From: Oxalicibacterium solurbis
GTDB taxonomy: Bacteria > Pseudomonadota > Gammaproteobacteria > Burkholderiales > Burkholderiaceae_D
DNA length: 64,000 bases
Reading direction: 5' to 3'
Assembly (NCBI RefSeq): GCF_014635845.1
Contig: NZ_BMDP01000001.1
Coordinates: 558,001 to 622,000 of the forward strand
Made by a program: the position numbers and the translations under genes. Numbering within the stretch: position 1 is the first letter of the stretch; every line of letters starts with the position of its first letter. The notes beneath the pieces are model-generated. The model saw only the letters and a list, made by a program, of their open reading frames with translations, searched no databases and was not told the origin of the DNA. Shown piece by piece: positions 55,856 to 64,000 of this stretch.

Positions 55856-56242
55856 TTAGTCTTCCGCGTCGCGCGCACGCGTTGCGTTAGCCTCGTCGAT
55901 CAGCTTTGACATTTCGATGCCGCGCGCCGTCGACGTGTCGTGCACGAAATGCAGCTCCGGCAAGGTATGGATCGTCAGGCGACGGCCAAGCTGATTGCGC
56001 AGGAAACCGGATGCCGCGGACAGGCCGGCGATCGTATTGCGAATTGCTTCCTTGTCGTCGACCAGCGTCGTGAAGAAAATTTTCGCATGCGCATAGTCCG
56101 GCGTCACCTGCACTTCGGTGAGTGTGACCATGCCGACGCGAGGATCCTTCAACTCGAAGGCAATCAGTTCGGCCAGGTCGCGCTGAATCTGATCGGCGAC
56201 GCGCAAGCCGCGTCCGGGAATGGATTTGCTGTGTCTGGCCAT
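55856..56242 (-). CDS. rbfA: Ribosome-binding factor A
   Basis: 128-residue KH-fold 30S maturation factor acting on the 16S 5' end helix. [28 protein letters not shown] and [15 protein letters not shown] are diagnostic (parts). Start at MARHSKS, six codons inside the open frame. Two hairpins separate it from infB. Confidence 0.95.
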
Positions 56243-56261
56243 GATATGCCCCAGAAGCAAA

Positions 56262-56281
56262 GCGGCGCATCAATGCGCCGC
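56262..56281 (-). terminator. GC-rich hairpin between infB and rbfA
   Basis: GCGGCGCAT (56262-56270) and ATGCGCCGC (56273-56281) with a two-base spacer, 20 bases upstream of the rbfA ATG. On the minus strand it is followed by TTTGCTT. So close to rbfA it may instead affect rbfA translation. Confidence 0.45.
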
Positions 56282-56299
56282 CCTTGTGAAAAATAATCG

Positions 56300-56335
56300 C
56301 TGATCGGCAAGCGAAACGAATCGCTTGCCGATCAG
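56300..56335 (-). terminator. 15-bp perfect hairpin after infB
   Basis: CTGATCGGCAAGCGA (56300-56314) and TCGCTTGCCGATCAG (56321-56335) pair perfectly over a six-base loop, five bases after the infB stop. On the minus strand it is followed after a few bases by ATTATTTTT. It could be a leaky terminator or an RNase III processing site inside the operon. Confidence 0.6.
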
Positions 56336-56340
56336 AATGC

Positions 56341-59121
56341 TTACAGCGTCCGTGCCACTTCCTGCACTTCGAACACTTCCAGCTGATCGCCTTCCTTGAT
56401 GTCGTTGAAGTTCTTCAACGTCAGACCGCATTCGAAGCCGGACTTCACTTCTTTCACGTCATCCTTGAAGCGCTTCAGCGAATCGAGCTCGCCGGTCCAG
56501 ACCACGACGTTGTCGCGTAGCAGGCGGACCGATGCGCCACGACGCACCAGACCTTCCAGCACGTAGCAACCTGCGATCGCACCGACCTTGCTGACCAGGA
56601 TAACCTGGCGAATCTCGACCAGGCCCAATGCCTGTTCGCGTTTCTCCGGTGCCAGCATGCCGGACATCGCCGCCTTGATCTCGTCTACTGCATCGTAAAT
56701 GATGTTGTAGTAACGGATGTCGACGCCGTTGGCTTCCGCCAGCTTGCGTGCCGAAGCGTCGGCGCGCGCATTGAAGCCGATGATGACGGCTTTCGATGCA
56801 ACTGCCAGATTGACGTCCGACTCGCTGATGCCACCGACCGCAGCATGCACAACCTGCACGCGCACTTCGCTGGTCGACAGTTTCTGCAGCGAACCGACCA
56901 GTGCTTCCTGCGAACCCTGCACATCGGTCTTGATGATCATCGGCAGGTTCTTGACTTCGCCTTCACCCATGTTTTCGAACATGTTTTCCAGCTTGGCCGC
57001 CTGTTGTTTTGCAAGCTTCACGTCACGGAATTTACCCTGACGGAACAGGCCGATCTCACGCGCCTTGCGTTCGTCTGCCATGACCATGACTTCTTCACCA
57101 GCATTCGGCACTTCGGTCAAACCTTGAATCTCGACTGGAATCGATGGACCGGCTTCTGCAATATTCTTGCCGTTCTCATCCAGCATTGCACGCACGCGAC
57201 CGTAGGCAGAACCTGCCAACACGACGTCGCCGCGTTTCAACGTACCGGATTGAACCAGGATCGTGGCAACCGGGCCACGCCCCTTGTCGAGCTTGGCCTC
57301 GACAACAAGACCGCGGGCAGGCGCTTCGACCGGCGCTTTCAATTCCAGCACCTCTGCCTGCAACAACACCTGTTCGAGCAAGGCATCGATACCTTCACCG
57401 GTTTTCGCCGATACCGGCACGAATGGCGATTCACCGCCGTATTCTTCCGGCACAACTTGCTCTGCAATCAACTCCTGCTTGACGCGGTCCATGTTGGCGC
57501 CAGGTTTGTCGATCTTGTTGATTGCAACGACGAGTGGCACACCGGCAGCTTTCGCATGCGCGATCGCTTCCTTCGTCTGCGGCATCACGCCATCGTCAGC
57601 AGCGACCACCAGAATCACGATATCGGTTGCCTTCGCGCCACGTGCACGCATCGCGGTAAACGCTTCGTGGCCCGGCGTATCGAGGAAGGTGATCATGCCG
57701 CGCGGCGTTTCGACGTGATAGGCGCCGATATGCTGCGTAATGCCGCCCGCTTCGCCGGACGCCACCTTGGCACGACGGATATAGTCGAGCAACGAGGTCT
57801 TGCCGTGGTCGACGTGGCCCATCACGGTCACCACCGGCGCACGCGGCAGTTGTTCGGCATCGGTATGCTCTTCGCCGCCGGCAACGAGCAGCGCTTCCGG
57901 ATCATCCAGCTTGGCCGCATGTGCGGTGTGGCCCATTTCTTCCACCACGATCATCGCGGTTTCCTGATCCAGCACCTGGTTGATTGTGACCATCTGTCCG
58001 AGCTTCATCAATTGCTTGATTACTTCGGAAGCCTTGACGGCCATCTGGTGTGCAAGCTCGGCCACCGTAATAGTTTCCGGCACGTAGATGTCGCGTACGA
58101 TCGCTTCGGTCGGCACTTGGAAGTTGCTTTCACGGTCGTCCGAATGCGAGTGACGACGTCCTTTCGGACCCGCACGCCAGCCGTCACGACCACCACCGGC
58201 CGGACCACCACGTGTCTTCAGGCCACCGCTGCGCTTCTTTGCATCGTCTTGCCAGGTCGACGACACATTGGCCGACTTGATCGATTTCTTGTCGCCCGGT
58301 TTCTTGTCGTCCTTCTTCTCACCCGGCTTCTTGTCAGCCGGTTTGTGCAACGTTCCTTCCGCCGATTTGGCGGCAGGCGCTGCCGGCTCCGGCGCCTTGA
58401 TCGCGCGGCGCGGCGCATTCATCATGGCCTTGATCTGGGCAACTTCGTCGGCAACCGCTTTGCGCGCGGCTTCAGCTGCCGCTGCGCGTTCGCTCGCTTC
58501 GCGCGCAGCATCCTTGGCGGCCTTCTTGCTGGCCTCTTCCTCTTCCAGACGTTTCTTTTCTTCCTGCGCGGTTTCGTCCGCCTTCACCTTGGCCGACTGC
58601 TCGGCTGCCTTCTCTGCCTCTTCGGCTACTTTCAAGGCTTTGGCCTGCTCTTCCTTCTCGGCTTCCAGCTTGGCAAGCCGATCCTGCTTCTCGCGCAGAT
58701 CGGCTTCCTGGCGCGCGATCAGTTCAGCCTGACGGCGCGCCTCTTCGGCGCGGCGTTCCTGTTCGGCCTCATCGATGACCGGAGCCGCTGCCGGCTTGGC
58801 CGTTTCCTCGGCGATATCGTCGCGTTTGACGAAAGTGCGCTTCTTGCGCACCTCGACCTGGATCGTGCGCGATTTACCGGTGGCATCCGCCTGCTTGATC
58901 TCGGTCGTTTCCTTGCGGGTCAGCGTGATCTTTCTTTTCTCGCCTTCAGGCGCAGCGCCATGCGCGCGACGCAGATGATCAAGGAGCTTGTCCTTGTCCG
59001 CCTTGGACAATTCATCGGACGCCGAGCTCTTCTCCACGCCAGCATCGCGCAATTGCGTCAACAGCACGTCTGCAGGCATTTTGAGCTCGGTGGCAAATTG
59101 GGCTACGTTGTTACTCGCCAT
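56341..59121 (-). CDS. infB: Translation initiation factor IF-2
   Basis: 926-residue GTPase that delivers fMet-tRNA to the 30S subunit. The N-terminal IF2_N domain ([19 protein letters not shown]) is followed by a long Lys/Glu/Ala helix (about 120-230), a Gly/Lys/Arg basic stretch, a second IF2_N copy (about 343-400), the G domain ([25 protein letters not shown]) and domains II-IV ending [17 protein letters not shown]. Forty-six bases downstream of nusA. Confidence 0.97.
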
Positions 59122-59167
59122 TCAGTCCTCTTTTCTATGTGACACGTTGGATGAAAATCGCCGCGGA

Positions 59168-61209
<2,042 letters not shown>

Positions 61210-61284
61210 GGAAGCTCTCCGAAAACAACGATCACGGCTTCGCACAGAAAACCTGATCGCAATACAGTACACAAACTGTTTAAC

Positions 61285-61309
61285 AAAAAAAAAATGGGCA
61301 TCTGCCCAT
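61285..61309 (-). terminator. Intrinsic terminator in the rimP leader (possible attenuator)
   Basis: On the minus strand, ATGGGCA and TGCCCAT (plus positions 61303-61309 and 61294-61300) pair across a two-base loop, followed by ten T. It stands 76 bases upstream of rimP and downstream of a credible promoter, so it may attenuate rimP-nusA-infB; alternatively it simply ends rluB transcription. Confidence 0.75.
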
Positions 61310-61332
61310 CTTTTTTATCGTTCTGACAACCG

Positions 61333-61371
61333 GATCGCCACCAAGAATATATGCGTCCCGGGTGGCCGATC
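61333..61371 (-). ncRNA. Leader stem-loop upstream of the rimP terminator
   Basis: On the plus strand GATCGCCACC (61333-61342) pairs with GGTGGCCGATC (61361-61371) with one bulged base and an 18-base loop. It would be the first structure in a transcript started at the -10 at 61387-61392 and would sit directly before the terminator hairpin. Together they look like an RNA leader of about 95 nt. I know of no named family that matches. Confidence 0.35.
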
Positions 61372-61386
61372 TTTATCAACTGTCAA

Positions 61387-61415
61387 ATTATAGTCGATTA
61401 CCGCAGTCACCGCAA
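61387..61415 (-). promoter_or_regulatory. Promoter upstream of rimP
   Basis: Minus-strand -10 TATAAT (61387-61392) spaced 17 bases from a TTGCGG (61410-61415) -35. Transcription would begin near 61380 and pass through the stem-loop and terminator before rimP. Confidence 0.55.
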
Positions 61416-61503
61416 TGTCGAGAGACTGGCGAAGCAGGTAGAAACAACGAAAAAGCCTAGAAAAACATTCACTTAGGCCGCTTCGGCTAGCAAAACAAGG
61501 AAA

Positions 61504-63075
61504 TCAGACCTTCGAACGCCGGCGCATTCCGCCGCCCATGCCATTTCCTCGTGCCGGGCCGCCCCCGCCTGACCGTCCTTGACCACCGCCGTTCCGGCGG
61601 GGCTGTCCCATGCCCGGGAAACCAAGTGCCGTCTGCAACGGATCCGGCTGGCGGCTACGAGATTGTTGCGGGCGCCCCGTCTTGCCGGAATTCTGTCCTT
61701 GCGAACGCCCCTGCCCCTGGCCCATGTTCTGCCACTGGCTTGGGCTTTGCGGCTGACCGAGTCCGTTATCGAAACGGGGTGCACGGTTGCCGTTCTGGCG
61801 CCCACCGGATGCAGCATTACGTTTCTTGCCGCTATCGCCTGCCTGCTTTTCCAGTCCGCTCATTGTCATCAGCGCACGCACGCCATGCTCGTCCATTTCT
61901 TCCCAGCGGCCGCGCTTCAAACTGCTCGGCAACGTCATCGAGCCGTAACGCGTACGGATCAGCCGCGACACGGTCAGGCCGATCGCCTCGAACATGCGGC
62001 GCACTTCGCGATTGCGACCTTCGCCGATCGTCACGCGATACCATTTATTGACGCCTTCGCCACCGCCGTCCGCGATACGCGAAAATTGTGCAAGGCCGTC
62101 TTCCAGCTCGACACCCGCCAGCAGTTTCTGCCGCATGCCTTCTTCCAATTCGCCCAGCGTACGCACCGCGTATTCGCGATCGATACCGTAACGCGGATGC
62201 ATCAGTCGATTCGCCAGATCACCGGAAGTCGTGAACAGCAACAATCCCTCGGTATTGAAATCCAGACGTCCTACGGCCAGCCATTTTCCGGTCTTCATTG
62301 TCGGCAGCCGATCGAATACCGACGGACGGCCTTCCGGATCATTGGTGCTGACGATCTCGCCGGCCGGCTTGTGATAAACCAGCACGCGCGGCGGGCGCTT
62401 GCTGATCTTGCGCTGAATCAGCTTGCCGTTGATGCGCACCTGATCGGTCGGCAAAATGCGCTGACCGATATGCGCAGGCTCGCCATTGACCGATACGCGA
62501 CCGGCAATGATCAACTCTTCCATGTCGCGACGCGATCCCAATCCGGCCTCAGCCAGCACCTTGTGCAATTTCGGTGCATCGTCTTCTGCCGTCAAATCGC
62601 GGCGGACATTTTTCTGCTCATGACGACGCTTGCTGCCATGTTCGTCGCCACCGGCCATCGCATCGAAGGCCTCGGATGTCACGAAGGAAAATACATCGTC
62701 GGCATCGCTCTTTTTCGCATGCCTGCCGCTACCGGCGTTCTGATTCTGACGTCCTTGCTTGGCGGATTTACTCTGTTCCTGACGACCTGCACGCTTCTGT
62801 GGCGCCTCGCCTTGCGCATCGCTACGCGCACCATCACCACCTTCAACGGGCGGCGCGGCATCGATACTCTGGTCTTTCTCTGCGTTGTTCTTACGTGACG
62901 CATGACGCGCACGACGCAAACTGCGCGGACCGCGCAAGCCACGTTTTGCCGGCTTTGCGCCGGCTTCGTCTGTCGTCATGGTTTGTGCGTTTTCGCCTCG
63001 GCCCTGACCTTCCGACGAAAAGGTGTCATCGGAAGGCGCATCGGACGGATTATTTTTCGTTGGGCGATTCATCAT
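61504..63075 (-). CDS. rluB: 23S rRNA pseudouridine(2605) synthase RluB
   Basis: About 523 residues, much longer than E. coli RluB because of tails. The core (about 165-420) has an S4 domain ([21 protein letters not shown]), the catalytic Asp in [15 protein letters not shown], and [15 protein letters not shown]. The first 160 residues are low-complexity and rich in Lys/Arg/Asp/Gln; the last 90 are Gly/Gln/Asn/Arg-rich ([23 protein letters not shown]). Start is uncertain: the ATGs at 63075 and 63072 lie within the end of scpB; a later one is at 62979. Confidence 0.9.
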
Positions 63076-63961
63076 TCGGTTCTTCGTTGTATTGACCTTG
63101 TACGTCAATGATCGTGTCGGCCACCACGCTGGCGGTCTCTTCGGCATCGGCAGGCAGTGCCTCTTCGATTACCGCATTGTCTTGTTGGTGTTGTTCCTGG
63201 TCCAGACCGTCGCCAGTCATGGAAAGTTCTTCGGCGACGCCAATCGCGACAGCAACCTCATCGGCTGCCGCCATATCAGCGGACCGTTCTGCAGATTCGT
63301 CACTGTCTTGTTCTTCGCCTGCCTCTGCCAAATCCATGACTTCCTGTCCCAACTGGGCGGCAGCGAAACCCGCTTCAAGTCCCTGGATTTCCAGAAGCGC
63401 ATCGCCCTGCATCTCGCCTTTTTCGACTTGCTGCAACGGCGGCAATTGATCCAGCGACGTCAGTCCCAGATCGTCCAGGAACTGCTTGGTCGTGGCAAAC
63501 AATGACGGGCGTCCAGGCACATCGCGATGACCGATGCTTTCGATCCAGCCACGATCCTCGAGCATCTTGATGGTCTGCGAATTGACGGTGACGCCGCGGA
63601 TTTCCTCGATGTCACCACGGGTGACCGGTTGGCGATAAGCGATGATAGCCAGCGTTTCCAGCGTGGCGCGCGAATACTTTGGCGGTTTCTCCGGATTCAG
63701 ACGCTCCAGATAGATCTTCATTTCCGGGCGGCTCTGAAAACGCCAGCCGGTAGACAGATTGACTACTTCGATACCCTTGCCTGCCCAATCGTTGTGCAAT
63801 TCATCCAGCATCTGGCGGATATCCTCGGCGCCGATCACGCCTTCGGCGCCTTCCCCGCCTTCGACCTCGACATAAAGCTTCTTCATGTCGTTGATGGATA
63901 ATGGCTCGTGCGCGCAAAGCAGCGCTGTCTCGAGGACTTTCTTGGCCTCAGCGATGTTCAT
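63050..63961 (-). CDS. scpB: Segregation and condensation protein B
   Basis: 303-residue kleisin-associated winged-helix protein of the Smc-ScpAB condensin. Core (about 1-190): [49 protein letters not shown] (in part), [18 protein letters not shown]. The last 110 residues are an acidic Glu/Asp/Ala tail ([18 protein letters not shown]), longer than in many homologues. Overlaps the preferred rluB start by 26 bases. scpA is expected beyond the right edge; 39 bases remain there with no gene visible. Confidence 0.94.
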
Positions 63962-64000
63962 TTACGATATGGACGGCTATAGGTTGTAATTGCAGAGCTT

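Follow-up and report, generated by a model that had tools for sequence, protein, structure and literature searches.

NusA and IF2 belong to the core factors, and the way in which their level is maintained is a basic question. In Oxalicibacterium solurbis the rimP-nusA-infB operon, which encodes both, is preceded by an intrinsic terminator that lies downstream of a promoter, and the question is what a terminator does in that position. We consider it likely that the element is the rimP-leader attenuator of this operon, probably serving a negative feedback by NusA. Coordinates refer to the window, that is the whole 64,000-nucleotide stretch of DNA that was analysed, and features lie on the minus strand unless stated otherwise. 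Downstream (3') of the terminator rimP (60727..61209; NCBIfam NF000929, 215 bits, cut-off 147), nusA (59168..60727; TIGR01953, 402.6 bits) and infB, encoding IF-2 (56341..59121; TIGR00487, 865.7 bits), follow in that order, while rluB (61504-63147) is located upstream of the leader promoter. The identities of RimP, NusA, IF2 and RluB in the window were all confirmed by NCBIfam profiles. The start of rimP is probably the TTG at 61209, where a preliminary description of the locus had also placed it, as relatives match from that residue on and a GGAG lies upstream. The read-through part of the leader (61210..61284), which carries AAC..TT-like bases also seen in relatives, leaves a gap of 75 bases between the end of the T run and this codon. 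A tRNA search of the leader returned no tRNA gene, in agreement with the preliminary description.

The minus-strand promoter noted earlier is present, with a -35 box TTGCGG (61410..61415) and a -10 box TATAAT (61387..61392) separated by a 17-base spacer. The -35 box retains 3 of the 6 consensus bases, and the leader promoter was therefore missed by a consensus promoter scan of the window. For comparison 117 rimP upstream regions were gathered, window included, which collapsed to 104 distinct leaders after removal of duplicates. Eighty-two of these were counted as Oxalobacteraceae by family label or by genus or title, following genus-to-family assignments that we take to be correct, and 22 belong to other Burkholderiales; two leaders whose titles say only Burkholderiales (L041 and L045) were placed in Oxalobacteraceae by a RimP identity of 80-81%. 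A -10 box (TATAAT, TACAAT or TATACT) is found ahead of the terminator in 79 of the 82 family leaders and TTGC occupies the -35 place in 78 of those 79, a TTGC...TATAAT-type promoter being located 46-195 nt before the terminator in 78 of the 82. The family leaders dropping out of the promoter count are L025, in which promoter and terminator are present but a C stands ahead of the T run, L095, with a candidate -10 only far upstream, and L096, with no -10 candidate. The distance from the -10 box to GGGC has a median of 77 (range 46-195) and falls between 66 and 94 in 72 of the 79 leaders; an AG lies within bases 4-8 past the -10 box in 72 of 79. In the window the AG at 61380..61381, 6-7 nt past the -10 box, is the predicted transcription start, which by the usual -10 to +1 spacing would presumably be 61381 or 61380. 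Sequence and conservation together thus argue for a promoter upstream of the terminator. A -10-like hexamer (one of six) occurs between terminator and rimP in only 1 of the 82 Oxalobacteraceae leaders and, with a promoter upstream in 78 of the 82, leader transcripts most likely pass the terminator. Weaker promoters 3' of the terminator may nevertheless exist in the window; this and the weak -35 box count against the attenuator reading.

The terminator itself (61285..61309) is recognized by its sequence, its fold, its conservation and its tie to rimP. It consists of the hairpin AUGGGC-AGAU-GCCCAU (61309-61294), with the core GGGCAGATGCCC, and a run of ten T (61294-61285). The preliminary description was right about the terminator and its ten T, and its 7-bp stem is corrected here to six pairs, since a seventh would leave a two-base loop. 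Directly 5' of the hairpin lies the A-rich flank AACGATAAAAAAG (61310..61322), with GAAGAT or AAAGAT preceding GGGC in 61 of 79 leaders. Because of this flank the plus strand also looks terminator-like in the terminator scan, at 61294-61316 with six T; G is frequent at this place in relatives. The terminator pattern is found upstream of rimP in 101 of the 104 distinct Burkholderiales leaders, window included, and the other three (L102, L108 and L112) carry looser forms by eye, with a longer loop or a shorter T run. The T run numbers exactly ten in 70 of 79 leaders and nine to eleven across all 79. In 60 genomes the pattern GGGCN2-6GCCCATTTTTT has 54 exact matches, 47 of them less than 400 nt upstream of rimP on the same strand; rimP was hit in 57 genomes, and 47 of these have such a match. 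Seven matches remain, of which that in G022 reads an already counted site on the opposite strand and that in G041 comes from a genome where no rimP hit was obtained. The reversed control pattern gave 2 matches in the 60 genomes. The terminator sequence is therefore nearly specific to rimP in these 60 genomes and is not a generic terminator.

These data also bear on the plain alternative named in the preliminary description, namely that the terminator ends the rluB transcript, rimP being served by another promoter and no attenuation taking place. The gene order fits such a role: in 55 of 60 named loci rluB precedes the leader on the same strand, and transcripts reading through from rluB would stop at the leader terminator too. 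Three of the five remaining loci have too little flank, but L058 and L091 have 3 kb of flank, and the terminator is kept with rimP at loci that gave no rluB within 3 kb (L058/L025 and L091). Similarly, the terminator is still there in L107 and L110, two genomes of the order that have 5S rRNA at most ~350 nt upstream of rimP. The promoter of the window sits between rluB and the terminator, the stretch between terminator and rimP is, as noted above, almost devoid of -10-like boxes in the family, and a motif with 47 of its 54 exact matches just upstream of rimP is hardly the terminator of rluB. A terminator-like hairpin past rluB (61479-61449) has a z of -0.9, no better than chance, and is of no real help either way. 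The assignment to rluB is thus disfavoured and we regard it as very improbable.

Leaders of a more minimal form are present elsewhere in the order. A TATAAT box followed after 8-34 bases by the terminator was detected in 49 of 300 genomes of Burkholderiales, and the reversed control pattern had no match in the same 300 genomes. Twenty of the 49 minimal sites (L128-L147) were inspected and all 20 lie before rimP (E 2.3e-25 or better), with rimP starting 15-143 nt past the terminator and 9-34 bases separating the -10 box from GGGC. With a start about 7 bases past the -10 box, the terminator of the shortest leaders would be almost the first thing transcribed. Because the minimal leaders have the terminator with almost no leader, the sequences suggest that the terminator alone is the core device and that the domain of Oxalobacteraceae is an addition. 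The same terminator thus occurs with almost no leader in some Burkholderiales or with a folded domain in Oxalobacteraceae, a natural series that lets one ask what the terminator does alone and what the added RNA domain changes.

The upstream structured RNA domain of the window (61323..61381) is supported by its fold and by compensatory changes in an alignment of the Herminiimonas group. The 107-nt RNA 61386-61280 folds at -43 kcal/mol, compared with a mean of -23.5 for its shuffles (z -6.2; 0 of 200 shuffles as good). Its main hairpin comprises 10 bp with one bulge (61371-61333), confirming the stem-loop of the preliminary description, to which the fold adds an outer stem (61386-61377 / 61332-61323). 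Part of this drawn outer stem (61386-61377) lies before the expected start at 61381/61380 and would be left out of the RNA. The upstream domain alone is not unusually stable everywhere: across 68 distinct leaders its median z is -1.3, with values below -2 in 19 and above 0 in 5, and that of the window is -2.7. Covariation was run on 40 of the 68 distinct leaders (26 + 14), the other 28, from mixed genera and some of very different length, e.g. L092, being left out. For the Herminiimonas/Oxalicibacterium group with its near relatives (14 leaders) the alignment shows the domain closed by an 8-bp helix, with 91.0% of cells paired against 84.0% in shuffles. Five of its 8 pairs have changed on both sides, a number attained by 13 of 500 shuffles. 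The covariation score, 0.505, compares with 0.351 for shuffled alignments, of which 0 of 500 attain it; these values are to be read with shuffles that ignore kinship and a structure taken from the same alignment. When the helix is slid the score falls to 0.07-0.22. The window copy of the domain has diverged; folded by itself, it forms a stronger hairpin in a shifted position. In the 26 leaders of the Janthinobacterium/Duganella group a 12-pair helix is 93.4% paired, with one-sided variation at 8 pairs and two-sided variation at 1. The apical helix of four pairs is 78.0% paired and has changed on both sides at all four, but some slid versions have as many such pairs. A fuller structure drawn by hand for this group has 89.9% paired cells against 88.3% in shuffles, and RNAalifold on the same alignment retains upstream only a 4-bp outer helix without compensatory changes. 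The alignments therefore support a folded domain in both groups, more firmly in the Herminiimonas group, and not one structure throughout the family. The core of the terminator stem is invariant in both alignments (26 + 14) and provides no covariation evidence.

The domain 5' of the terminator differs strongly between genera, and in other families of the order many leaders are too short to contain it. For that reason it is probably an accessory, with a role in stabilising the leader RNA or in tuning pausing. The same variability, the lack of room in minimal leaders and the tie of the element to rimP count against the view that the RNA of ~95 nt, with a promoter and a terminator of its own, works chiefly in trans as a small RNA, for instance as a client of a ProQ/FinO-domain protein. 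The predicted RNA would suit such a client in having a stable 5' hairpin as well as an A-rich flank and ten U; a ProQ-domain protein is encoded in the O. solurbis genome, as judged by gene presence only, and a rimP leader is listed among attenuator-derived ProQ-associated RNAs in the part of the literature available. As a main function this is quite unlikely, and a small-RNA role is in any case compatible with attenuation.

A competing pairing of the terminator arm is absent in the window, where GGGC of the truncated RNA has a probability of 0.07 of pairing upstream, as compared with 0.73 for shuffled sequences. The absence of a visible antiterminator, a property of the published rimP-leader, does not extend to all relatives. 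Over the 68 distinct leaders GGGC pairs with upstream sequence at a mean of 0.65, the shuffled value being 0.70. An antiterminator in the window and the Herminiimonas group was considered and rejected, the partners changing from species to species. In the Janthinobacterium/Duganella leaders (L028, L056 and L059-L090) the truncated RNA of 18 of 24 distinct leaders folds so that a 5' GCC is paired to GGC of the terminator arm, and in 15 of these 18 this is accompanied by a CAUCU-AGAUG pairing (AGAUGGGC of the terminator 5' arm); these 24 leaders are related and not independent. The terminator arm hardly varies, and covariation consequently cannot probe the GCC/CAUCU pairing. The predicted pairing is a candidate antiterminator and serves as a lead. 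It would allow a more elaborate arrangement, in which Oxalobacteraceae inserted a lineage-specific RNA domain between promoter and terminator as a regulated switch, GCC and CAUCU of Janthinobacterium/Duganella pairing with AGAUGGGC to the exclusion of both the leader helix and the terminator. Together with the NusA brake this would make a two-input attenuator, of which the window version would be locked towards termination. We hold this extension to be possible and rather doubtful. The window, being without a competing pairing, agrees with the published proposal of a protein, probably NusA, that acts directly on the terminator.

The attenuator reading then proposes that RNA polymerase would start near 61381, copy the folded 5' domain and reach the short GGGC/GCCC terminator with its ten U. 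Some polymerases would stop there and free an RNA of about 95 nt, and others would continue into rimP. Most likely NusA would stimulate termination at the leader site, so that high NusA would lower its own synthesis. NusA-stimulated premature termination is the best reading by analogy, the role of NusA being drawn from other bacteria. In passages of Naville & Gautheret 2010 (PMC2965389) the rimP-leader is described as a proposed attenuator with a GGGc...gCCC terminator and with NusA as the best effector candidate. Like the window element, it stands before rimP-nusA-infB and combines GGGc...gCCC and a T stretch in a rimP-specific motif with no visible antiterminator; its terminator lies 4-130 nt from the gene start, compared with 75 nt in the window. 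The attenuator layout claimed in the preliminary description is supported: the order of promoter, structure, terminator and gene is conserved in the family, the terminator is close to rimP-specific and the same element has been published. The B. subtilis nusA-operon leader resembles the window, by description, in having an intrinsic terminator in the 5' leader, and for B. subtilis the available text of PMC12288461 reports NusA-stimulated termination. In the S. agalactiae rimP leader RNA-seq places termination 31 nt past the start, with a short terminated RNA and a long transcript from one start site, as in the reading of the window, and the authors suggest NusA feedback in the sections available (PMC4448216); the 31 nt resemble the minimal Burkholderiales leaders, unlike the about 95 nt of the window. 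The E. coli metY-nusA-infB leader similarly has terminators upstream of rimP, and NusA affects its own operon there by feedback, but it differs from the window in containing metY, several promoters and RNase III sites (PMC6511841, in part), the window having no tRNA at this place.

An attenuator with an effector other than NusA would behave alike: cold-shock proteins could melt the terminator, RimP itself could act, or constitutive partial termination could fix the level. The conservation of the terminator stem as sequence fits any binding protein, RimP is also named as a hypothetical effector in PMC2965389, and cold-shock antitermination was proposed for the E. coli operon, as mentioned in PMC6511841. 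The data that this 2019 E. coli study presents in its accessible text do not fit cold-shock antitermination, which counts against it, and the effector reported for B. subtilis is NusA (PMC12288461). A non-NusA effector is on these grounds unlikely, and NusA remains the preferred effector. The E. coli study also saw no indication that relevant read-through underlies the cold induction, an observation that counts against the attenuator reading as such.

The window adds to the published form a folded domain of ~60 nt between promoter and terminator; in the passages of PMC2965389 on the rimP-leader no larger conserved element is reported for the general form, and an extra hairpin between promoter and terminator does not appear. 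What is new here is this extra folded domain, the partial covariation support for it and the very short leaders in sister families. The supplementary species lists of PMC2965389 may already include terminators from Burkholderiales. A literature search by title or start of abstract, with most subscription journals outside its scope, found no paper on the leader in Oxalobacteraceae or other Burkholderiales. Rfam RF01770 (rimP), called a gammaproteobacterial rimP leader in the relevant passage of PMC5955585, is a 102-position model with the same gene context by name. Searched against the genome, its covariance model produced 32 matches with E values up to 10, none of them at the locus, which counts against the attenuator reading; annotation relying on RF01770 would thus miss the window leader. 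An Rfam scan of 56000-64000 returned sub-threshold matches only. RF02420 (Bp1_162) was rejected as an identity: it matches both strands of the terminator at 26.7 and 25.3 bits against a gathering threshold of 50, and three other loci. A plasmid collection contained no DNA match.

Individual leaders display further variation. In L092, where 195 nt separate the -10 box from GGGC, promoter and terminator are both intact, and the stretch between them contains a long inverted repeat (AAGGGCACTTCGAAAAACC and its complement) that may be an inserted small mobile element. L018 (1311-1444) carries a second, imperfect terminator hairpin, ATGGGCGGATGCC, directly ahead of the usual one. The bases right past the T run (window 61271-61284; GTTRAACAGTTTG or similar) are alike across Oxalobacteraceae, unlike the rest of the stretch to rimP, which is variable, and AAC..TT-like bases occur at most 14 nt past the T run in 68 of 81 leaders. 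Other families frequently have ATTTGTGG or GTTTGTGG right past the T run.
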